From Tsuneonella rigui (GTDB lineage Bacteria > Pseudomonadota > Alphaproteobacteria > Sphingomonadales > Sphingomonadaceae): a stretch of DNA of 64,000 nucleotides. Under the pieces are notes generated by a model. That model worked only from the letters and a program-made list of their open reading frames with translations, had not been told where the DNA came from and ran no database searches. The stretch is taken from contig NZ_RSEL01000028.1 in assembly GCF_003958625.1 (NCBI RefSeq), positions 291,501-355,500 on the forward strand. The letters run 5' to 3'. Of the stretch, positions 5,134-58,750 are shown one piece after another (the first letter of the stretch is position 1; every line of letters begins with the position of its first letter). The position numbers and the translations under genes are program-made.

Positions 5134-7326
5134 ATGATTCGCATTCGTCACGCTTTCCTAGCCGGCGTCGCCGCCGTCACGATTGCTCCGGCCGCTCACG
5201 CGCAGACCGCGCTCGAGGACGGCTCGACCACCAACGAGCAGACGAACGACCCCAACGCGGGCGATGTGTCGGACCCGGGCACGATCGTGGTGACGGCGCG
5301 TAAGCGCGAGGAAACGCTGCAGGACGTGCCGGTCGCGGTGACGGCGATCACCGGCGACGTGCTGTCGTCGCGCGGCATCAACTCGGTGCGCGAGGCCGCG
5401 GTGCTGGCGCCGGGCCTCAACATCAACAGCGACGGCTCGGGCCGCGCGTTCGTTGCCATCCGCGGCGTCGGGGTGACGCTGGTGCAGTCGGTGCAGCCGG
5501 GCGTCGGACTGTTCGTCGACGGCATCTATCGCCCCAACACCGCCTATCTCAACAACCCGCTGCTCGATGTGGAGCGGATCGAAGTGCTGCGCGGGCCGCA
5601 GGGCACGCTCTACGGCAAGAACACGCTCGGCGGTGCGATCAACGTCATCACCCGCCAGCCGGGCAACGAATTCGAAGGCCGCGCCAGCGCCAGCTACGCC
5701 GGGCCCGACGATCAGTTCATAGTCGCCGGCTCGATCTCCGCGCCGATCGTGCAGGACACCCTCGCGGTGCGCATCGCCGCTTCGCACCAGGAGCAGGACG
5801 GCTTCTCGACCAACACCACGCTCGGCAAGCCGGCCCAGCCGTTCAACAGCGAGTCGCTCAACGGTACCGTGCGGTTCACGCCCGGGCCGGTCGAGCTGAC
5901 CGTCAACGGCTACTACGACTGGATCCACTCGGTGAATATTCCGTACGTCCGGGTGACCGGGCCGGACGACTATTCGCGCAATCTCACCGTCAACACGCTC
6001 AACCGGGTCAACTTCCGCTACCGCGGCGTTAACGCGCGGCTGGCGGTGCCGATGGACAGCATCGGCAGCACGCTGACCCTGATCGGCGCCTACGACGCCC
6101 GTGACGCGCACAACATCGACCAGGATGTCGATTTCGGTCCGGGCAACTTCGCCCGCGCGACCGGTAACGACCAGCTCCGCACCAAGACCGCCGAGCTGCG
6201 CTTCGACAGCAAGTGGTCGGATTCGTTCTCCAGCCTGTTCGGTCTGTTTTACAGCCGCGAAGATGCCGACGCGCTCGACGTGACGACGCTGCTGCCGGCG
6301 TTCTCTGGCCTGCCGTTCAATATCGTCCGCACCACCACGGTCGACAATCAGGCCGATACTTACGCCGCGTTCGGCACCGTGTTCTGGAACCCGACCCCCG
6401 ATTGGGAAGTCGCGCTCGGACTGCGCTACGACCACGAGAACCGCACCGCCAACGGCTCGGTCGTGACTGTGCTCGGCCCGCTCGGCGCCATCGGCGGTCC
6501 GCTGCCGCAGGCGCAGATCAAGTCGAACGAGTGGCAGCCCAAGCTGACCGTCAAGCGCAACTGGACGCCGGAGCTGATGACTTACGCGTCGGTCGCGCGC
6601 GGCTATCGCGGCGGCGGCTTCAACGCCCCCACCGCGCCGACCCGGACCTACACCGGCGACAGCGCTTGGACCTACGAACTAGGCGCCAAGTATGCCTCGG
6701 ACGACCGACGCTTCAGCCTGTCGGGCGACGTGTTCTACAACGATTACAAGAACTACATCGGCCTCAACTCGATTGCACCCGCCGCAGGCGGCGGGCTCGT
6801 CACGGTCGACCTTAATACCGGCGACGTGACCAGCTACGGCGTCGAGCTCGAAGGCTACTTTAAGCCGACCCCGGCGTGGACCATCAGCGGCGGCGTGGCG
6901 CTTATGCACGCCCGGCTCGACAACGACGATGCCTATTTCGCGACCACCGGCCGCCGCCTGTCGTCGGACCGCCTGACCTTCCAGCCCGACTGGACCGCCA
7001 ACCTCGCTACGGACTACACCGTGCCGCTCGGCAACGGCGAGCTGGTGTTCAGCGCCAACGTCTCAGGCAAGGGCAAGCGTCTCGCCGCTACGCTCAACCA
7101 GACCACCCCAACCTTCCTCGACAGCTATTGGCTGACGGGCGGCTCAATCACCTACCGCACCGGTCCGATCGAAGTCGCCGCGTTCGTCACCAACGCGTTC
7201 AAGGCCAAGTACTGGGAAAGCTACATCGAGAAGACCACGCTGCAGCTCGCGGGTCTTCCGGCGTCCGATCTCGGCATCATGGGCGAAGGCCGCCGCTACG
7301 GCGTGCGCGCCAGCCTGAAGTTCTGA
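5134..7326 (+). CDS. TonB-dependent outer-membrane receptor
   Basis: Outer-membrane active transporter of 730 residues. A signal peptide ends near Ala-His-Ala-Gln at residue 24. A plug domain follows, starting with the segment IVVTARKREE and containing the conserved VLRGPQGTLYGKN stretch near residue 155. The rest is a 22-strand barrel ending in a terminal Phe (ASLKF). It is the catabolic sphingomonad type rather than a clear siderophore receptor. An AGAGGA ribosome site precedes the ATG and partly lies in a 7-bp hairpin (5094-5100 with 5125-5131) that could modulate translation. It sits between the SDR and the 2-hydroxyacid dehydrogenase and probably imports the substrate of this cluster. 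Confidence 0.95.
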   Translation: MIRIRHAFLAGVAAVTIAPAAHAQTALEDGSTTNEQTNDPNAGDVSDPGTIVVTARKREETLQDVPVAVTAITGDVLSSRGINSVREAAVLAPGLNINSDGSGRAFVAIRGVGVTLVQSVQPGVGLFVDGIYRPNTAYLNNPLLDVERIEVLRGPQGTLYGKNTLGGAINVITRQPGNEFEGRASASYAGPDDQFIVAGSISAPIVQDTLAVRIAASHQEQDGFSTNTTLGKPAQPFNSESLNGTVRFTPGPVELTVNGYYDWIHSVNIPYVRVTGPDDYSRNLTVNTLNRVNFRYRGVNARLAVPMDSIGSTLTLIGAYDARDAHNIDQDVDFGPGNFARATGNDQLRTKTAELRFDSKWSDSFSSLFGLFYSREDADALDVTTLLPAFSGLPFNIVRTTTVDNQADTYAAFGTVFWNPTPDWEVALGLRYDHENRTANGSVVTVLGPLGAIGGPLPQAQIKSNEWQPKLTVKRNWTPELMTYASVARGYRGGGFNAPTAPTRTYTGDSAWTYELGAKYASDDRRFSLSGDVFYNDYKNYIGLNSIAPAAGGGLVTVDLNTGDVTSYGVELEGYFKPTPAWTISGGVALMHARLDNDDAYFATTGRRLSSDRLTFQPDWTANLATDYTVPLGNGELVFSANVSGKGKRLAATLNQTTPTFLDSYWLTGGSITYRTGPIEVAAFVTNAFKAKYWESYIEKTTLQLAGLPASDLGIMGEGRRYGVRASLKF

Positions 7327-15326: not shown

Positions 15327-15411
15327 CCCGCGCGGGTGATTTGGCGATCATCCTCGCCGCTTCCCACAAATGAGATGTGCGCGCTTCCCAGCAAACCAAG
15401 GAAGCGCCGCG

Positions 15412-16707
15412 ATGGTCAAAGTTCCCAAACACCGGAAGCTCGAGGTGGTGAACCGCCATCCCGACGTTCTCATTCCCTATGCGCACAACGCGCGCGAGCA
15501 TTCCAAGGCGCAGCTCAAAAAGCTGGTCGCGAGCATCGAAGAATTCGGGTTCACCAATCCGATCCTCATCGACGACGGCATGAATGTACTGGCGGGGCAC
15601 GGTCGTCTCATGGCGGCGAAGTTGCTCGGTATGACCTCGGTGCCCACCATCATGCTCGCGAACATGAGCGAGGCGCAGGTGCGCGCTTACATTCTCGCTG
15701 ACAACGCCATCGCGACCAAGGCGGGATGGTCCAAGGATCTGCTCCGGCACGAGTTCAGCGGACTGGTCGCGCTGGGCTACGATGTCGAGCTGACCGGGTT
15801 CGACACCCTCGAGATCGACACGCTCATCTCGATGAGCGACGACGACCCGAAGGAAGACGTGATCGAGCTGCTCGACGAGCGCGAGCCGCCCATCTGTCAG
15901 CTCGGTGACCTCTGGAGCATCGGCTGGCACCGGCTGTTCGTCGGCGACGCCCGGGTTCTCGACTCCTACGCGCGGCTGCTGGGCAACGAGCGCGCGGAAC
16001 TCATCATCGCGGACCCGCCCTACGGCTGCGCCATCGCCGGCAACGTATCCCGCAACCGCAACGCGGAAGACTTCGTGATGGGTTGCGACGGCGTTGGACC
16101 CGAGCTGGCGCACGGACTGTTGCGCCCCGCCCTCAAGTGCATGCGCGTCTATGCCCGGCCGGGCGCGATCGCATTCGTTTTCATGGACTGGCGCGGTCTG
16201 CCCGCGTTGTGGGAGGCCGCACAGGGCATTTTCCACGAGATCAAGAACCTCATCGTATGGTCGAAGACCAACGCGAGCATGGGATTCTATAGGTCAGCCC
16301 ATGAACTGATCTACGTGTTCAAGGTCAGCCCCGGAAAGCACATCAACAACTTCGGTCTGCGTCGTCACCGGACCAACGTCTGGGTGTATTCGGGCGCGAA
16401 CACCTTCCGCCGTGGGCGCAAGGCGGACCTCGACGCACACCCGACGATCAAGAACAAAAACATGATCGCAGATGCGATCCTCGACGTTTCGAAACCGGGT
16501 GGGATCGTGCTCGACGGCTTCGCGGGATCGGGCACGACTCTGGTCAGTGCGCACATGACCAACCGCCGCGGGTTCGGGATCGAGCTCGATCCCAAGTACG
16601 CCGATCTCATCCTCAAGCGGCTCAGCGAGGCCGTCGGCGAGGAGCCGACGCTGGAGGATGGTCGGACGCTGTCCGAGGTCACCCACGCACGGACCGAGGA
16701 GCCCTGA
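15412..16707 (+). CDS. ParB-like nuclease domain fused to a DNA methyltransferase
   Basis: A phage-type DNA-modification protein of 431 residues. An N-terminal ParB/Srx-like domain (about residues 10-105) contains NAREHSKAQLKKLVASIEEFG and GHGRLMAAKLLG. A C-terminal amino-methyltransferase domain has motif IV DPPY at 201-204 before motif I FAGSGTT at 370-376, the beta-class order for N4-cytosine or N6-adenine methylation. The start at 15412 has AAGGAAG 9 bases upstream; an earlier in-frame start at 15370 lacks one. It leads a ParB-MTase/DUF5681/terminase series found in prophages and as isolated cassettes. The modified sequence is unknown. Confidence 0.92.
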   Translation: MVKVPKHRKLEVVNRHPDVLIPYAHNAREHSKAQLKKLVASIEEFGFTNPILIDDGMNVLAGHGRLMAAKLLGMTSVPTIMLANMSEAQVRAYILADNAIATKAGWSKDLLRHEFSGLVALGYDVELTGFDTLEIDTLISMSDDDPKEDVIELLDEREPPICQLGDLWSIGWHRLFVGDARVLDSYARLLGNERAELIIADPPYGCAIAGNVSRNRNAEDFVMGCDGVGPELAHGLLRPALKCMRVYARPGAIAFVFMDWRGLPALWEAAQGIFHEIKNLIVWSKTNASMGFYRSAHELIYVFKVSPGKHINNFGLRRHRTNVWVYSGANTFRRGRKADLDAHPTIKNKNMIADAILDVSKPGGIVLDGFAGSGTTLVSAHMTNRRGFGIELDPKYADLILKRLSEAVGEEPTLEDGRTLSEVTHARTEEP

Positions 16708-16733
16708 CCACAAACCGGAAGAGGAATTGGGTC

Positions 16734-17285
16734 ATGGATGATGACGACGACGCGCCGCGTCCCGAGGGGCGCCGCAAGGACGGCAAGCCCTTCAAGCCGG
16801 ACAACACCCGCGACGATGGCAGTTATGTGGTTGGCAAGGGCCGACCGCCAGAGGCCGGGAAGTTTGCAACAGGCGACGGCCGCAAGCGCGGAAGGCGGCG
16901 CAAAGGCGATCGCAACGCCGACACCGATTTTGAAGAGGAGTACAATCGGAAGATCACTCTGGCTGAAGGCGGCGCCAAGCGGCGGGTGAGCAAGGGCCGG
17001 GCAGCTACGATGCGCCTGTTTGATAATGCGGTCGCGAAAGGTCAAACCGCCGCGATCATCGAGGTCGACCGGCGCCATCAGCGGATGCTGGAGCGCAAGG
17101 CAGCGAGCCGGCAGCGCTCCGCCGAGGCCGATGCGGCAATTCTCGACGCCTACATCCGCGACCTGATGGGTCCTCAGACCTTCGGTCCGCACCTCTGCGG
17201 TGACCCGGAGGACGGCGCGGTGGTCGTTGCAACCACTTCCGGCGACCCGTCAGCTGAAGACCAGGAGCCAACCGATGACCGTTGA
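16734..17285 (+). CDS. DUF5681-like protein, possible small-terminase partner
   Basis: A protein of 183 residues with a highly charged N-terminus (acidic run, then GRRKDGKPFKPDN and FATGDGRKRGRRRKGDR). This resembles the DUF5681 proteins encoded directly before large terminase genes, where they may act as DNA-recognition partner (family association, not proven). The C-terminal third is helical and acidic. Its end overlaps the terminase start by 11 bases, which implies translational coupling. Confidence 0.75.
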   Translation: MDDDDDAPRPEGRRKDGKPFKPDNTRDDGSYVVGKGRPPEAGKFATGDGRKRGRRRKGDRNADTDFEEEYNRKITLAEGGAKRRVSKGRAATMRLFDNAVAKGQTAAIIEVDRRHQRMLERKAASRQRSAEADAAILDAYIRDLMGPQTFGPHLCGDPEDGAVVVATTSGDPSAEDQEPTDDR

Positions 17286-18753
17286 CCCGACCACCGCTCT
17301 GGCCGCCGCAATCCGTCTCAACTTCGACCTGTTCCTGCGTGTCATGTTCACCGAGATCAACGGGGGCACCTACCTCCACAACTGGCACATCGACGCGATT
17401 GCGCACCAGCTCGAGCTCATGAGGACGGGGCAGAACCGGCGCCTGATCGTGACGATGCCGCCCCGGCACCTCAAGTCGATCGCCATCTCCACCGCGTGGG
17501 TAGCCTGGATGCTGGGTCAGGACCCGTCGCTGAATTTTATGTGCGTCAGCTATGGCGACAAGCTCGCTGAGAAGCACGCGCGAGACTGCCTCAAAATCAT
17601 GCGCAGCAGGCTCTACAAGCTGGCCTTCCCGAACGTGCGACTGGCGAGGACCACGACAGGGGACTTTGAGACAACGGCTGGCGGTGGTCGTCTCTCGACG
17701 GGTGTCGAAGGTCCGATCACGGGGCGCGGTGCAAATTTCATCGTGATCGACGATCCGATGAAGGGCGCGGACGCGCTGTCGGAAGCCGCGCGCATTAAGG
17801 TCAAGGAGTGGCTCGACGGCTCGCTCATCTCACGCCTCGATGATGACGAGAGCGGCGTCGCCGCTATCGTTCTGGTCATGCAGCGGCTCCACGAGGATGA
17901 TCTTGCCGGCATGCTCATCGAGCGCGGAGGATGGAACGAGCTCCGTCTCTCCGCGATTGCGACCCATGATGAGGTTATCCCGCTCACCCGCGGGAGATTC
18001 TACCTGCGGCGCGAAGGATGCGCGCTGCACCCGGCCAGGCGGTCACTCGCGTACCTGCACGACCTCCGGGCCCAGAGCTGGTACTACTTCTCCTCCCAGT
18101 ACCAGCAGGAGCCCATTCCGCGCCAGGGCAATTTCGTCGAGCGCGAGTGGTTCCAGTTCTACGACAAGCCGCCAGAAACCGGCGTCGTGATCCAGAGTTG
18201 GGATACCGCTTCACAGCCCGGTCTCGGCAACGATTTCACGGTCGGCATCACTGCTCGCTACTACAAGGGAAGGTTCTACATCCTTGATGTCTACCGGGCG
18301 CGGGTCGCATTCGGGGCCATGGAGAGGGCGGTCATCGAGCTCTGTCGGCGATACAAAGTCGATCGCCTTGTCATCGAACAGGCCGGAAGCGGTATTCAGT
18401 TGATCCAAAGGCTCGAAGAGGAACTCCCCGATGGAGTGCCCTACCCGGTCAAGGTGAAGCCGTTCGAGTCAAAGACGATACGGTTTGAAGCACAGGCTAG
18501 TCGCGTTCAGGCTGGACAGCTCTTTCTCCCCCGCGAGGCGCCATGGCTTGCAGAGTTTATCGCCGAAGTCGTCGGCTTTCCTAACAAGCGCCACGACGAT
18601 CAGGCGGACGCCCTCGCGCAGCTCCTGGCGAACCCGCCTTGGAAAAAGCCGACGATCGTCAACGTAGGTCCCGAGTTGGCCGACGAGACATACTCAACCG
18701 GCCTGTCTGATGAAGAAGTCATGGATAACTACCTCAGAGCCTGGGACGTCTGA
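17275..18753 (+). CDS. terL: phage terminase large subunit
   Basis: Packaging ATPase/nuclease of 492 residues. The ATPase part has the Walker A-like PPRHLKS (62-68) and Walker B IDDP (158-161). The C-terminal RuvC-like nuclease has its acidic residues in SWDTASQ (Asp310), the LVIEQAGSG segment and HDDQADAL (440-447). All key residues are present, so it looks intact. No portal, capsid, protease or tail gene lies near it; the next genes are a convergent ubiquitin-like operon. It is therefore either a prophage remnant or a domesticated DNA-modification/packaging cassette. Confidence 0.93.
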   Translation: MTVDPTTALAAAIRLNFDLFLRVMFTEINGGTYLHNWHIDAIAHQLELMRTGQNRRLIVTMPPRHLKSIAISTAWVAWMLGQDPSLNFMCVSYGDKLAEKHARDCLKIMRSRLYKLAFPNVRLARTTTGDFETTAGGGRLSTGVEGPITGRGANFIVIDDPMKGADALSEAARIKVKEWLDGSLISRLDDDESGVAAIVLVMQRLHEDDLAGMLIERGGWNELRLSAIATHDEVIPLTRGRFYLRREGCALHPARRSLAYLHDLRAQSWYYFSSQYQQEPIPRQGNFVEREWFQFYDKPPETGVVIQSWDTASQPGLGNDFTVGITARYYKGRFYILDVYRARVAFGAMERAVIELCRRYKVDRLVIEQAGSGIQLIQRLEEELPDGVPYPVKVKPFESKTIRFEAQASRVQAGQLFLPREAPWLAEFIAEVVGFPNKRHDDQADALAQLLANPPWKKPTIVNVGPELADETYSTGLSDEEVMDNYLRAWDV

Positions 18754-18860: not shown

Positions 18861-19268
18861 TCACTCGTCGCGAAGAAACGCTACGAGGCGTTTGACCCAA
18901 TCGCCGACCCTCTGGGTCCACGGCCTCCGCTGATATGGCTTGAGGTCCCTGCGGCGCACGACTTCGATCTCAGCTTCGGAGTAGCGCCGTCGCCATTGAA
19001 CCCTACCCTGACCGAGCACGTAGTGAGACTTACACTTGAGGTTCCAGTTCCCGACGGACGGATGAAGCGATGGCCGGGCGTCGGTGCCTTCCAGTGCCCA
19101 TTCAATGTTGTTGAGCGGAAGGATCACGCGCTCTCCGCATCCGCAAGCGCAAAGGTGATGGCACCTCGAACCCTGCGGATTGACGTAGAGGATGCCTGCC
19201 TCAAGCTGCTCGGGTATCGGACCTCGCGAGACCACGAAGGTATAACTCCGCCGGTCGAACTTATTCAC
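18861..19268 (-). CDS. DUF6527 family protein of the ubiquitin-like operon
   Basis: A protein of about 135 residues, the last gene of the Ubl operon. A metal-binding-like cluster HHLCACGCGE is followed by LPL, then the diagnostic stretch PSVGNWNLKCKSHYVL and a basic, Arg/Trp-rich tail. DUF6527 proteins occur with bacterial Ubl/E1 genes and have been proposed to process or remove the Ubl; this role is inferred here. I chose the GTG at 19268, which overlaps the E1 stop by 8 bases; a GTG at 19337 would overlap the E1 gene by 77 bases. It converges on terL with a 107-base gap. Confidence 0.82.
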   Translation of the reverse strand: MNKFDRRSYTFVVSRGPIPEQLEAGILYVNPQGSRCHHLCACGCGERVILPLNNIEWALEGTDARPSLHPSVGNWNLKCKSHYVLGQGRVQWRRRYSEAEIEVVRRRDLKPYQRRPWTQRVGDWVKRLVAFLRDE

Positions 19269-20442
19269 GGTCCAGCTGCATCGTTGATATAGTGAAGGTA
19301 GCTTGCGAAACAGCGCGACCGCTGGCGTAGTAGCCACGATACCTCTTGTACATGAAGACCGCCATAGCAGCGTTGAGGGCGTTCAGTTCCACCGTCTGAA
19401 TATTCTTCTGGTACTCATCAGGAATGTCGACCAGATCCTCGCCGATGACCTCGTTGATCAGGTCGTCGGAGCTGCTTGGATCGAGCAAGGTTGTGTCCAC
19501 CATGCCAGTGAGGCCTGGGTTGCCGTGATGCAGGCCCATCCCGACGATGATTACAGGGATCCCGTGCGCCAGCAGCATTTTGGCGATCTCCCGGCGCGCG
19601 CCCATCTTGTCGACAGCGAGGAAGGCGAAGGTGACCCCTTCAAGGAGCTGCATTGAGCCTTGGTCGAGTTTCGCCTCGATCACCTTGGCACGCTTGTGCC
19701 ACCCGGCGTAGCGCTGCTCGATCACTCGCACTTTCGGCTGACCGAGTTCCTCGCGGTGCGTCGCACCAGGGACGCGGAACGCATTGTGGAGATCGAACAC
19801 GTCGAAATCGAAGAGCCGGATTTCTTTCACGCGCGTCTTTGAGACGAGATCGAAGATGTAGGAACCGGTTCCACCAGCGCCGATGATCGCGATCGTGTCG
19901 CTCGCCAGCAGCTTGTCGAGTTCACTGAGGTTCGCCCGCGCCGAGTTCATGTCATCGAACGGGAACGGACAGTCCTCGTCAGCCTCACCGAGGTTGGCAA
20001 ACGGGGTGGCCTGAAATTCCGGATGCTTCGCTTCCGCAGGACCCGAGATGTAGCACGCGTACTCGGTGAACTTCTCGTGCAGGCTCACGTAATCACGCAT
20101 GACGCCGCCGTCGCCATGCTGCTTCCAGGACCAGTAAAACGACGACAATTTGCCATCGAAGAGCGGCGTGACGTTGGCGCCGTTACCACTAAAGAGGATC
20201 CTGCCCTCCTGATCGTAAGGCTGTCCTCCGATGAAATACATCTGGTGGTTCATGGGCAGGGTTCGTGCCTGGCCATTGTGATCGAAGTTGATCGTATCGA
20301 CCATATAGCCAGTGTGCGGATCCCCAGCCGCGTCGAGGTAGGGCACGGACATGACCAGATAGGGCCCGCGGCGATAAAGCGCATACCCTTCATCCAGAAG
20401 ACGCTGGATGCTGCCATCCTCAGAAGGCGGTAGAACTTCCAT
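19261..20442 (-). CDS. E1-like activating enzyme: DUF6791 plus ThiF domain, lacking a catalytic cysteine
   Basis: Adenylating enzyme of 393 residues. Residues 1-175 match the DUF6791 type of N-terminal domain. Residues 182-393 are a ThiF/E1 Rossmann domain with the nucleotide-binding GAGGTGS (188-194), the DFDVFDLHNAFR segment and VDKMG. It should adenylate the C-terminus of the adjacent Ubl. The only two cysteines are Cys130 and Cys158 in the N-terminal part; the ThiF domain has none, so no ordinary E1 thioester can form on it. No separate E2 gene is present, so the N-terminal domain might carry the transfer step (inference). It starts 18 bases after the Ubl stop. Confidence 0.88.
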   Translation of the reverse strand: MEVLPPSEDGSIQRLLDEGYALYRRGPYLVMSVPYLDAAGDPHTGYMVDTINFDHNGQARTLPMNHQMYFIGGQPYDQEGRILFSGNGANVTPLFDGKLSSFYWSWKQHGDGGVMRDYVSLHEKFTEYACYISGPAEAKHPEFQATPFANLGEADEDCPFPFDDMNSARANLSELDKLLASDTIAIIGAGGTGSYIFDLVSKTRVKEIRLFDFDVFDLHNAFRVPGATHREELGQPKVRVIEQRYAGWHKRAKVIEAKLDQGSMQLLEGVTFAFLAVDKMGARREIAKMLLAHGIPVIIVGMGLHHGNPGLTGMVDTTLLDPSSSDDLINEVIGEDLVDIPDEYQKNIQTVELNALNAAMAVFMYKRYRGYYASGRAVSQATFTISTMQLDRE

Positions 20443-20460
20443 CGTTTTGCACCCCCGCCC

Positions 20461-20730
20461 TTACGACTGACCGGTGCCGGTCACGGTGAAGTCCATCCCG
20501 TCGACAGCTTCGATCGAGCCACCGGGCTTGAGCTTGCCCGACGCATTGCCATGCCCGCGATCGTACGAGATGCGGTAGCCATCGGCAGGGTTCGCGTTCG
20601 GGCCGAAGGCCAACTTCACGAGATCGTCGAAAGTAATCTTTCCCTTCGGCACCGTGCGGGTGATGTCGTTGACGTCGATGCTCACCGTCTTCGGCGCTTT
20701 GTCGTCCTTGCTATTGTCGTGATCAGTCAT
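20461..20730 (-). CDS. ubiquitin-like (multiubiquitin-family) modifier protein
   Basis: A small beta-grasp protein of 89 residues, first gene of the operon. A disordered acidic N-terminus (about 14 residues) precedes a single Ubl domain (VSIDVNDITRTVPKGKITFDDL... onward, shortened) like the multiubiquitin domain family. It ends GTGQS rather than Gly-Gly, and no stop-proximal GG is present. A GGAAA ribosome site precedes the ATG at 20730. It is the likely modifier for the E1-like protein encoded 18 bases downstream. Confidence 0.85.
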   Translation of the reverse strand: MTDHDNSKDDKAPKTVSIDVNDITRTVPKGKITFDDLVKLAFGPNANPADGYRISYDRGHGNASGKLKPGGSIEAVDGMDFTVTGTGQS

Positions 20731-20793
20731 TGGTATTTCCTCATACTGACGTCTGTCCCGACGCCTGGCGGCGGTCAGACTGCTCTTTATCGG

Positions 20794-20865
20794 TCCCGAA
20801 TCGGGAACGCTGTCGATATCGCACGAGTCCGATGCCCGCACAAGGACTGCGCTCCCAATCTGGGA
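20794..20865. promoter_or_regulatory. paired inverted repeats in the divergent Ubl / HigB promoter
   Basis: Two 13-base boxes, TCCCGAATCGGGA (20794-20806) and TCCCAATCTGGGA (20853-20865), follow the pattern TCCC-N5-GGGA with starts 59 bases apart. They lie in the only spacer between the Ubl operon (start 20730, minus) and higB (start 20908, plus). The first is a perfect palindrome. The HigA-type helix-turn-helix protein encoded next to it is the likely binder, which would put both operons under one repressor (inference). Confidence 0.65.
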
Positions 20866-20907
20866 ACATTTTTCTTGCGCGCGCCATCACGCTATGCGAG
20901 GAACCGC

Positions 20908-21195
20908 ATGAGGCTAATCGGCAAATCTGAACTGCATGCTCTGGCAAGGACCAAGGACAAGGACCTTCGCGCCGCCGTGCTCGCGCTTTGCGCCGAGCTC
21001 GAGGCAGCCAACTGGCGTGCCTTCAGTGAAGTCGAAACGGCCTACCCCTTCGCAGCCAGCTCCGATCCGCGGGTCACGATTGACCTTGACGAACGCCACT
21101 GCGCGGTGGTGACATTCAACTTCGAAGTGGGGATGGCTCTGGTGGAATTCGCAGGACCGGCTGCAAGCCTGAAGCGCAAGCGCTCAGCATCATGA
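20908..21195 (+). CDS. higB: HigB-family type II toxin
   Basis: A protein of 95 residues resembling the HigB/RelE-like mRNA interferase family: it starts MRLIGKSEL, carries a Trp in EAANWRAFSEV, then the AYPFA...DPRVTIDL and VVTFNFEVGMALVEFAG strands typical of the family. Such toxins cleave mRNA on the ribosome when their antitoxin is lost. GAGGAA lies 6 bases before the ATG. The stop overlaps the next start as ATGA, the usual toxin-before-antitoxin arrangement of hig modules. Basic catalytic residues cannot be confirmed by eye. Confidence 0.8.
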   Translation: MRLIGKSELHALARTKDKDLRAAVLALCAELEAANWRAFSEVETAYPFAASSDPRVTIDLDERHCAVVTFNFEVGMALVEFAGPAASLKRKRSAS

Positions 21196-22352
21196 CCGCT
21201 ACCGTGACAATCGCTCCGGTTCGCACGGCGAGCCAGTACGAAAAGGCCAAGGCCCGTATCTCCGCTCTGATGGGCAAAAGCGATCAGAGGGCGGTCGACG
21301 AGCTCGATATCCTCGGCGCTCTCGTCGAAAAATACGAGCGTGAGAATTTTGCTCTCGAAGCTCCAACCCCGCTTGAGGCGATCCGGTTTCGGATGGCCCA
21401 GGCGCGATTAAAGCCCCGCGATCTCGAGCCGTTCATCGGGGGCCGATCCAGAGTGTCGGAGGTGTTTGCCGGCAAGCGGCCGCTGTCACTTGATATGATA
21501 CGCTCGCTTCACCGGCATCTCGGGATCCCCGCCGAAGTGCTCATTGGAACAGGCGCCTCCGAACCGATGACACAAGTCAAAGAGCCGTCTGCAGCTGCGT
21601 TACAGCGGCTCCGAGACGGCGCTTTCATGCGACCAGGAGAGTCATTCGCCGGGTTCGTCGACCGCGCGTTGGGGTCAAGCCAGGCAGATGCGTTTTGGCG
21701 CAAATCACGAACAGAGCGAACGAGCGCAAAGACCGACCATGCTGCGCTCGCTGGATGGCTAGCGGCGGTCCGGCTGTTGGCTGACGAGGTTTCGATTGGC
21801 TCAGATAGACGACCAAGCGCCGAAAAGCTGGGTAGGCGGATCGCGAAGCTCAGCGTTGAAGCAAATGGACCGCAACGCGCGAAGGCCGAACTGGCCAAAA
21901 TCGGAATAGTACTAGTTACGTTGGAGCATCTGCCGGGTACTTATCTCGACGGAGCAGCGCTTTGTCGCAACGATGGAGCGCCGGTCATTGCACTAACGCT
22001 ACGTCATGATCGTATCGACAATTTCTGGTTCACACTGCTCCACGAGCTTTGTCATGTGCTCAATCACATCGGCAAGGAAACGAATCTGATCCTTGATGAT
22101 CTTGAATTAAGGAGCAGCGATGAGATTGAGGCCGAAGCTGACCTGTTTGCTCAAAACGTTTTGATCCCGCCTACAATTTGGGATGAGAACAAATCTGCAG
22201 ACCTCGACAACGATGATGTGGACCGCATCGCTGAGTTAGCAGGGGTTCATCCGGCAATCGTAGCAGGACGATGGCAGCGAGAGCACGGCGACTATCGGCG
22301 TTTTGCAAGAAGCTTGGGTCGCGGAGAAATCAGATCTCAATTTTATCGTTAA
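21192..22352 (+). CDS. HigA-like antitoxin fused to an ImmA/IrrE metallopeptidase domain
   Basis: A protein of 386 residues with two parts. The first 120 residues are HigA/XRE-like: the ISALMGKS...DELDILGALVEKYE lead and a helix-turn-helix around residues 57-110 (MAQARLKPRDLEPFIGGRS...). The C-terminal part (about 210-370) is an ImmA/IrrE zinc peptidase with HELCH at 284-288 and a downstream EAEADLFAQNVLIP glutamate. ImmA/IrrE proteins cleave repressors in response to stress or phage signals; here regulator and protease are one chain. It is coupled to higB by ATGA and is the likely ligand of the paired repeats at 20794-20865. Confidence 0.87.
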   Translation: MTATVTIAPVRTASQYEKAKARISALMGKSDQRAVDELDILGALVEKYERENFALEAPTPLEAIRFRMAQARLKPRDLEPFIGGRSRVSEVFAGKRPLSLDMIRSLHRHLGIPAEVLIGTGASEPMTQVKEPSAAALQRLRDGAFMRPGESFAGFVDRALGSSQADAFWRKSRTERTSAKTDHAALAGWLAAVRLLADEVSIGSDRRPSAEKLGRRIAKLSVEANGPQRAKAELAKIGIVLVTLEHLPGTYLDGAALCRNDGAPVIALTLRHDRIDNFWFTLLHELCHVLNHIGKETNLILDDLELRSSDEIEAEADLFAQNVLIPPTIWDENKSADLDNDDVDRIAELAGVHPAIVAGRWQREHGDYRRFARSLGRGEIRSQFYR

Positions 22353-22846: not shown

Positions 22847-23570
22847 TCATCGAAGCGTCCGAATGATCCCGCTGAAGTCCACGCTGCCGTTTCCCGCGCC
22901 GCCGAAGTCTTCGTACAGCGCGCGCGCCCGCCGGCCCATCGGCACGGGCGCGTCGGCGGTCTCGGCCGCCTCCATCGCCAGCCGCAAGTCCTTGAGCATC
23001 CGCCCCGCCGCGAAGCCGCCCTGATAATCGTTGTCGGCCGGCGAGGTCGGGCCGACGCCGGGGACGGGGCAGTAGCTCGTCATCGACCAGCACTGGCTGC
23101 TCGAGACGCTAGAGATGTCGTAGAAGGTCTGCGGATCGAGTCCCAGCTTCTGCGCCATCGCGAAGGCCTCGCAGGTGCCGAGCATGCTGATGCCGAGCAG
23201 CATGTTGTTGCAGATCTTGGCCGCCTGCCCGTTGCCCGCCGCGCCGGCGTGGATCACCGCCTTGCCCATCGCCTGCAGGATCGGCTCCGCGCGCGCGAAC
23301 GCGCTCTCGCTACCGCCGACCATGAAAGTAAGCATGCCGCCGTTGACCGCCGCGACCCCGCTGGAAACCGGCGCATCGACCATCTCGTAGCCCGCCTTGT
23401 GCGCCTGGTCCGCCAATTGGCGCGCGGTCGCGACGTCGATCGTCGAGCAGTCGAGCAGTCGAGCAGTCGAGCAGTCGAGCAGGATCGCCCGCTGACGCAT
23501 TGCCGAACACCTCTCCGGTGTACGCGCTGAGCACGATCTCGCCGTTCGGCAGCATCGACAAATTCTCGCG
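22847..23570 (-). pseudogene. mmsB: 3-hydroxyisobutyrate dehydrogenase remnant, 5'-truncated and frameshifted
   Basis: The minus strand encodes the C-terminal three quarters of a 3-hydroxyisobutyrate dehydrogenase (valine catabolism): SMLPNGEIVLSAYTG, LLDCSTIDVATAR, the catalytic-loop VDAPVSSGVAAVNGG, GNGQAAKICNNMLL and DNDYQGGFAAGRMLKDL. The N-terminal Rossmann part (the GLGNMG region) is missing; the similarity begins near 23570, just beside the stop of the GGT gene at 23579. The two parts lie in different frames, separated at an octanucleotide repeat tract (23443-23482) whose copy number breaks the frame. It is a non-functional fusion remnant at a recombination junction. Confidence 0.85.
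23443..23482. repeat. five tandem copies of the octanucleotide TCGAGCAG
   Basis: Five perfect head-to-tail units of 8 bases. On the coding strand they read as repeated Leu-Leu-Asp-Cys-Ser-Thr-Ala-Arg of the mmsB remnant. Since 8 is not a multiple of 3, each gain or loss shifts the frame. Confidence 0.92.
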
Positions 23571-58117: not shown

Positions 58118-58750
58118 ATGGGCTACTCACAATATGATCCGTCGATGCAGGGTCGTGCTCCTTGGAACGCCGGCAAGACCGTCGGGACCAAGCGGCCGCT
58201 GACGCAGAAGCAGATTTGGGCAATCCGGTTCTTCCTCGACCGAGAGGGTCGGCTGCGAGATCGAGCGCTGTTTGATCTGGTGATCGACAGCAAGCTGCGT
58301 GGGTGCGACCTGGTAAAGATCAAGATCGGGGACCTCGTCGCTGGCGATGAGGTCCGCACTCGAGCAATTGTGATCCAACAAAAGACGGGCCGTCCCGTCC
58401 AGTTTGAGCTCACCAGCGATGTCCGTGCCAGCTTACTCGCCTGGTTGGAGCGACGGCGTGGTTGCCTTGATGAGCATGCATTCCCCAGCCGCGTAGATCG
58501 CGCAAACTACATGAGCACCCGGCAATATGCTCGGTTGGTTGATGAGTGGGTCACAGCGATCGGACTGAGGCGCGCGGAATACGGCACGCATTCTCTGCGC
58601 CGAACCAAGGCATCCATGATCTACAAGGCCACAGGCAATCTGCGCGCCGTGCAGATCCTACTCGGACACACCAAGATCGAGAACACAGTGCGCTATCTCG
58701 GCGTCGACATCGAAGACGCACTTACCCTGGCCGAACACACCGACATCTGA
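58118..58750 (+). CDS. tyrosine-type site-specific recombinase/integrase
   Basis: A compact recombinase of 210 residues, essentially only the catalytic domain. Catalytic residues are visible: Arg61 (KLRGCDL), His158/Arg161 (HSLRR), His184 (LGHTKIENT) and Tyr193 (VRYLGVD). The usual N-terminal core-binding domain is absent or very short, as in solitary integrases of this type. No clear att sites or tRNA are adjacent. It may mark the right edge of the accessory region that begins near 22.8 kb, or be an independent insertion. Confidence 0.92.
   Translation: MGYSQYDPSMQGRAPWNAGKTVGTKRPLTQKQIWAIRFFLDREGRLRDRALFDLVIDSKLRGCDLVKIKIGDLVAGDEVRTRAIVIQQKTGRPVQFELTSDVRASLLAWLERRRGCLDEHAFPSRVDRANYMSTRQYARLVDEWVTAIGLRRAEYGTHSLRRTKASMIYKATGNLRAVQILLGHTKIENTVRYLGVDIEDALTLAEHTDI

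Follow-up and report, generated by a model that had tools for sequence, protein, structure and literature searches.

The three-gene operon at 18861–20730 of the window (the whole 64,000-nt stretch of Tsuneonella rigui DNA analyzed here) belongs to a widespread kind of operon that has been known from sequence since 2006, within which it is divergent; no experiments on this kind were found in the literature searched. On the minus strand it encodes, in order, a ubiquitin-like protein (Ubl) of the Multi_ubiq family, an E1-like protein combining a DUF6791 and a ThiF domain, and a DUF6527 protein; all three ORFs are open. It is a real operon, by its sequence one for ubiquitin-like activation, and probably functional. 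The preferred reading, given a probability of roughly one half, is that it represents the type 6e “domain X” ubiquitin-like activation/conjugation systems of Iyer et al. (2006), is sister to Bub, and works by the steps proposed below.

Gene arrangement and distribution

The Ubl gene (20461–20730, minus strand) encodes 89 aa forming a single beta-grasp domain (Multi_ubiq, PF14452, E = 1.2e-8). Its stop is separated by 18 nt from the start of the E1-like gene (19261–20442, minus strand; 393 aa), which matches DUF6791 (PF20590, E = 9e-22) and ThiF (PF00899, E = 3.5e-16). The DUF6527 gene follows (18861–19268, minus strand; 135 aa from a likely GTG start; PF20137, E = 4e-21). Its ORF opens at 19337, but six aligned homologues lack about 23 residues of this N-terminus, and the probable start is a GTG at 19268, in an 8-nt overlap with the E1 stop. 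The original prediction of three tightly packed minus-strand genes was correct as to place, strand, and open frames, and the domains it assigned (Ubl, DUF6791, ThiF, DUF6527) all have Pfam matches above the curated cut-offs. DUF6791, DUF6527, and Multi_ubiq are each matched once in the genome (2.86 Mb in 30 contigs).

DUF6791 is found in seven of 385 genomes of the class, including the window's own. A contig scan with seven E1s matched at least 596 stretches, at least 520 of them encoding a tblastn relative, and the best 80 were kept. According to their records these belong to the Pseudomonadota, Bacteroidota, Actinomycetota, Bacillota, Acidobacteriota, Planctomycetota, and other phyla; their best segments are 31–40% identical to the window E1 protein. 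The 89 loci compared (L001–L089, with L001 the window's own) are the best-scoring ones rather than a random sample.

A search for the same three-gene order elsewhere found it widely: Ubl, E1, and DUF6527 genes are on the same strand and in that order at 86 of the 89 DUF6791-ThiF loci. As these were fetched by their E1s, the presence of all three genes on one strand in so many shows that the grouping is not due to chance. The arrangement had been taken to be unusual, a view that has to be given up, since the layout recurs across many phyla and fits the “domain X” operons in the relevant passages of Iyer et al. (2006); among the 89 loci the “minimal three-gene” form is the normal one. There is no DUF6527 gene at L019, where the contig stops about 300 nt past the E1, or at L044, although its contig continues; L088, at a contig end, has no Ubl, and at L050 and L063 the DUF6527 gene is about 2 kb further on. 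That these are phage genes was considered and rejected, with no match among 50,697 phage records, two among viral contigs, and 114 among 72,556 plasmid records.

Neighboring genes compared with Bub operons

The titles of a group of Citrobacter structures in the PDB (9ea4, 9ea5, 9ea8, 9eae, and 9eav) name BubCD, BubB, and BubA. Part of BubCD, used as a query, led to a Citrobacter braakii plasmid operon with Multi_ubiq plus Prok-E2_E, JAB plus ThiF, and DUF6527. Residues 104 and 370 of its BubCD are Asp and Tyr, agreeing with the D104A and Y370F of the titles; by its title, 9eav is the entry in which the depositors changed Tyr370 to Phe. BubB is Prok-E2_E (profile E = 7.5e-47). The Bub set used for comparison consists of this operon and 12 others, drawn from 40 listed entries out of 124 matching records. 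Twelve of these 13 operons, all but L109, have an annotated DUF6527. In seven, annotation gives the E2 a gene of its own; the remaining operons have it fused to the Ubl, as Pfam confirms in the four fused operons scanned. Two Bub-type operons, L110 and L111 (from Deinococcus and Bradyrhizobium), have an annotated phosphotransferase gene between the E1 and DUF6527.

Profiles built from 13 Bub E2s and 12 JAB regions were used to search the neighborhoods of 83 DUF6791 sources, namely L008–L089, 64 of which are flanked on either side by 3 kb or more, and the window. Prok-E2_E occurs near none of the 83 and near all 13 Bub E1s; JAB near two (both RadC genes) as against 13 of 13; and DUF6791 near 83 of 83 as against none of 13. 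As the profiles largely derive from the very Bub operons that match them, and the 83 sources were fetched by their own E1s, those rows serve to control the method; what is new is that E2 and JAB are absent near DUF6791. This agrees with the earlier statement that neither gene adjoins the window operon. Elsewhere in the genome, no match was found to Prok-E2_E (PF14462), Prok-E2_A, or Prok-E2_B. The genome does have a Prok-JAB gene, on a different contig, and one further match that stays under the cut-off. For Prok-E2_A and Prok-E2_B, only two and four of 150 genomes matched. Judged by their annotated domains, DUF6791 systems and Bub share Ubl, E1, and DUF6527, with DUF6791 in exchange for E2 and JAB. 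The relation to Bub that had been proposed is upheld, while by its defining parts the window operon is not itself a Bub operon.

The E1-like protein

Eighty-three E1s were aligned, with the window protein standing for L001; a length filter left out L021, L040, L044, L057, and L081, and L088 was omitted because of its contig end. The DUF6791 domain (residues 12–164, 19951–20409, minus strand) has invariant H66, G72, P75, S105, Y128, and A136. Ser105 (codon 20128–20130, minus strand), a candidate nucleophile, and His66 (20245–20247, minus strand), its possible partner, are each conserved in 83 of 83 sequences, and K107 and K124 in 82. The ThiF adenylation domain and C-terminal part (residues 172–393, 19261–19929, minus strand) carries G188/G191/G193, D212, N220, R223, and K237. 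Toward its end is Tyr344 (codon 19411–19413, minus strand), the equivalent of BubD Tyr370, which is Tyr in all 83 and in all 13 Bub-type E1s.

Cysteine, by contrast, has no conserved column: the best three hold it in 64, 44, and 25 of the 83 sequences, and the two cysteines of the window E1 (130 and 158) fall outside these columns. The E1 of L067, from Arthrobacter ruber, contains no cysteine at all, though its operon is otherwise complete. Bub is reported to conjugate by oxyester rather than thioester chemistry. The suggestion that the window operon does the same is plausible on the strength of an E1 with no conserved cysteine and with BubD Tyr370 kept as Tyr344.

When 26 DUF6791-type E1s (that of the window plus 25 chosen at random from the other 82) are aligned together with the 13 Bub E1s, the columns kept in at least 38 of 39 sequences are the ATP-site residues, F274, position 299, G301, G313, and Tyr344, the last being Tyr in 39 of 39. 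At every conserved residue compared, the window E1 can be likened to a Bub E1 on sequence, except at position 299, where it has Ile; Asp is found there in 82 of the 83 DUF6791-type E1s and in the other 38 of the joint alignment. It also has Asp at 316, where 80 of 83 have Arg. With these two replacements, the window copy could be weakened.

An AlphaFold2 (AF2) model of the E1 has a mean pLDDT of 90.7. Its best Foldseek match in the PDB is Citrobacter BubCD (E = 1.8e-13 over 247 columns), most plausibly over the ThiF part, as the sequence profile aligns only there. MccB structures are also found among both the Foldseek and the profile matches.

The ubiquitin-like protein

The window Ubl ends in ...FTVTGTGQS, without GG. 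A profile of 39 Ubl relatives (from 88 loci, picked by length and by hand) matches the solved structure 9cd2 at E = 7.3e-21. With L081 excluded, 87 copies remain, 86 with a terminal Ser and one with a terminal Ala; in 83 of the 87 there is a Thr at the fourth place from the end. The seven unfused Bub Ubls end in G, G, G, R, V, H, and N; in none is the last residue Ser.

The terminal Ser codon is TCN in all 86 copies. If the E1 ORF is taken to begin at its earliest possible start, it overlaps the Ubl gene at 80 of 88 loci, the overlap being 26 nt at 53 of them. This common overlap suggests translational coupling; the window copy has no overlap. Since the Ser codon is within the overlap at most loci, part of its conservation could stem from the E1 frame, which weakens the idea that the terminal Ser reflects selection purely at the protein level. 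Eight loci were called overlap-free, and two of these were set aside (L040 with its E1 ORF cut, L081 with its Ubl ORF cut). In the six usable ones (L001, the window's own, with L012, L014, L020, L041, and L042) every Ubl ends in Ser, with limited independence, since five of the six are Bacteroidota according to their records.

The DUF6527 protein

The CACGC cluster noted earlier in this protein is present. In an alignment from 66 of 87 loci, picked by length and by hand, C40, C42, C44, S71, C79, and H82 are invariant (66 of 66), four of them being spaced as C40-x3-C44-x34-C79-x2-H82. DUF6527 is presumably the Bub serine protease; the latter has a Ser-His dyad. The model (mean pLDDT 85.8) shows a small domain, rich in beta structure and ending in two helices, whose fold has no match in the PDB at E ≤ 0.001.

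The last 26 residues include Trp in 62 of the 66 sequences and have a median net charge of +4. In 29 of 66 their hydrophobic moment ranks within the highest 10% of the shuffles of the same segment; the first 20 residues, taken as a control, do so in 11 of 66. This is suggestive of a Trp/Arg-rich, amphipathic C-terminal helix, possibly a membrane-binding tail. An N-terminal amphipathic helix in the Bub DUF6527 proteins was also considered and found unsupported (three of 12 at p ≤ 0.1).

Genomic context and possible regulation

The intergenic region upstream of the Ubl gene (20731–20862) is divergent. It contains two similar dyads, 59 nt apart (20791–20808 and 20850–20867), the second of which enters the ORF of a HigB-like protein (20863–21195, plus strand; Pfam match below the curated cut-off). 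The next gene (21192–22352, plus strand) is divergent from the Ubl gene and encodes a protein with HTH and ImmA/IrrE (Peptidase_M78) domains by Pfam, a probable regulator of the operon. The dyads, between the Ubl gene and the HTH-ImmA/IrrE pair, are possible operators.

Similar genes recur near the relatives. A cluster of the ImmA/IrrE type, to which the window protein belongs, is found near 50 of the 83 sources, and at 43 of these it has a motif resembling HExxH; WYL proteins form a cluster near four, and HTH clusters are near 13 and 12. A DUF2188-domain cluster (the domain having been scanned in L015) is near nine and is a possible fourth gene; at L015 its member (5945–6442) immediately precedes the Ubl gene in the same orientation. 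According to PMC4963859, TA-like loci with COG2856/DUF955 adjoin 70% of Multi_ubiq proteins. Of 544 Bub operons, according to PMC13373217, 219 have CapW or CapH+CapP, both responsive to DNA damage; the same paper states that phage protection by Bub has yet to be demonstrated. As the DNA-damage response is known for CapW or CapH+CapP with Bub, a DNA-damage-induced role in the window is an analogy.

Both flanks, on the left the PEP carboxylase side and on the right a hydroxyisobutyrate-dehydrogenase-like fragment, are widely matched in the own genome and in 78 family relatives. For the operon stretch, among the matches listed, the only ones outside its own genome are short (148 nt in G762, 51 nt in G812). 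The operon was probably gained by transfer. Adjoining it are ParB/DNA methylase, DUF5681, and terminase-like genes (15370–18753), and a relative in the same genus, G785, has similar stretches elsewhere in its genome. A functional link between operon and terminase cassette was considered and dropped, as no such cluster recurs among the shared neighbors. The 3-hydroxyisobutyrate-dehydrogenase-like gene on the right (22847–23500) is shortened at its N-terminus and 85% identical over about 0.7 kb to a sequence on another contig of the same genome (C20). A phage-integrase-family gene is found far from the operon (58118–58750).

Is DUF6791 E2-like?

That DUF6791 does the transfer, as had been suggested, is a possibility. 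In the AF2 model it has a helix at 11–17, strands at 22–25, 28–36, 42–50, and 67–71, a further strand at 102–105, and a helix at 121–139. E2 domains, in the relevant passage of Iyer et al. (2006; PMC1779556), have a four-strand meander with flanking helices, and the modeled order of elements fits this topology, as a coarse likeness. At the profile level, likeness to BubB-type E2s did not reach significance. An hhalign comparison with 13 of these was colinear, placing Ser105 on the Ser of WSRH, with P = 0.11, at noise level; column shuffling matched that result in seven of 60 controls, and reversal of the alignment gave a score of 10.9 as against 15.0. E2 homology was not supported by profile. 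A DUF6791-only alignment (41 members, picked by length and by hand) matched in Pfam, at E up to 10, DUF6791 itself and seven stray families, with no E2 family among them, and a PDB search with the same 41 found no E2.

Proposed mechanism and alternatives

Gene content, order, and conservation, the domains, the E1 model, and the absence of nearby Prok-E2_E or Prok-JAB genes are direct observations, and from them a series of chemical steps and a biological role can be proposed. To judge by its conserved ATP-site residues, ThiF would adenylate the C-terminal carboxylate of the Ser-ended Ubl with ATP. The Ubl would then move as an oxyester to Tyr344 in the E1 part and/or to Ser105 in DUF6791, and from there to a target, with DUF6791 replacing both JAB and E2. 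DUF6527 might act on the conjugate, or might bring the complex to the membrane by its amphipathic tail. The divergent HTH-ImmA/IrrE protein would probably control the operon under stress, the likeliest being DNA damage by analogy with CapH+CapP. A bolder version is offered tentatively: one Cys-independent polypeptide would be both E1 and E2, its ThiF part adenylating the Ser-ended Ubl and its DUF6791 part, with Ser105 and His66, acting as a serine-dependent E2 that finishes the transfer. This would make a two-protein oxyester conjugation machine spread across bacterial phyla.

DUF6791 occupies the place that JAB has in Bub E1s, and its invariant His and Ser could be hydrolytic. The alternative that survives best is of another kind: DUF6791 would be a deconjugating or processing domain standing in for JAB, and Tyr344 would pass the Ubl straight to its target. 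Iyer et al. (2006), in their passages on domain X, speculate on a role for it like that of JAB. The Ubl, however, stops at a conserved position and leaves no tail that could be processed, whereas Bub Ubls are E2-fused, Gly-ended, or have residues past the Gly; loss of JAB leaves the loss of E2 unexplained; and the order of elements in DUF6791 looks E2-like. A JAB stand-in is a possibility to be kept in mind, if an unlikely one.

The presence of MccB among the structural and profile matches, the absence of an E2 nearby, and a last residue that is Ser and not Gly might suggest that no protein is tagged at all, and that the Ubl itself is modified or released, by MccB-like peptide adenylation or by addition of a small group to its C-terminal Ser. 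This is improbable, given that the best structural match is BubCD, the Ubl is a full Multi_ubiq domain, and DUF6527 is common to Bub operons. It is quite improbable that the window copy has lost its function while decaying as cargo of a mobile island: its three frames are open, and H66, S105, K107, Y344, and the ATP-site residues are kept, despite the Ile299 and Asp316 replacements, the adjoining terminase-type cassette, and the want of a long match to the operon stretch in the 78 family relatives among the matches listed. Sulfur transfer like that of ThiS/ThiF or MoaD/MoeB, which the ThiF/MoeB-family adenylation domain might bring to mind, can be set aside as very improbable, with no C-terminal Gly-Gly on the Ubl, no conserved Cys in the E1, and, beyond the operon genes, ImmA/IrrE, HTH, and DUF2188, every neighbor cluster found at seven or fewer of the 83 sources.

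On the preferred reading, of a conjugation system sister to Bub, the DUF6791 family would be a large and simpler relative, with one protein where Bub has E1, E2, and JAB. It would offer a three-gene system in which to ask what is the minimum for ubiquitin-like tagging, whether a Gly-ended modifier is needed, and how E2 enzymes originated. The shared Tyr and the invariant Ser and His suggest direct mutants, and the Cys-free L067 enzyme is a natural control.

Comparison with known systems

The E1-E2 proteins of the CBASS and Bil type are thioester systems with catalytic cysteines. The window E1 has weak ThiF similarity to the PADLOC models for them (1.4e-7 for the best E1-E2 model, 0.014 for BilD), but its N-terminal domain is unmatched. 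The multi-ubiquitin domain protein of ZDHYS365 (PDB 9cd2) has a C-terminal domain that matches the Ubl family and ends in TDKS, but in a chain of 222 residues, as against 89 for the window Ubl.

Closest by description are the type 6e operons in the passages of Iyer et al. (2006; PMC1779556) that deal with domain X. These have an E1 in which an uncharacterised domain replaces JAB, one to three Ubl repeats (a solo Ubl domain being noted for Amac), and a Cys/His protein; no experiment on them is reported in those passages. The window operon is alike in having one Ubl repeat and an E1 with a non-JAB amino-terminal domain. Its metal-type motif, C-x3-C-x34-C-x2-H, is close in spacing to the C-x3-C-x35-38-H-x2-C given there, with the last two letters swapped. 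From its position, domain X would be DUF6791; the paper predates the Pfam name. Neither DUF6791 nor DUF6527 is named in the open-licence literature searched, a scope outside which the main Bub papers (Ye 2026, Gong 2025) fall.

Bub itself is alike in its Multi_ubiq Ubl, in a ThiF domain that shares the ATP site and the Tyr, in a DUF6527 gene next to it, and in having ImmA/IrrE or WYL-type regulators near. It differs in having Prok-E2_E (BubB) and JAB (BubC), where the window operon has neither, DUF6791 occupying the JAB position and the Ubl ending in Ser.
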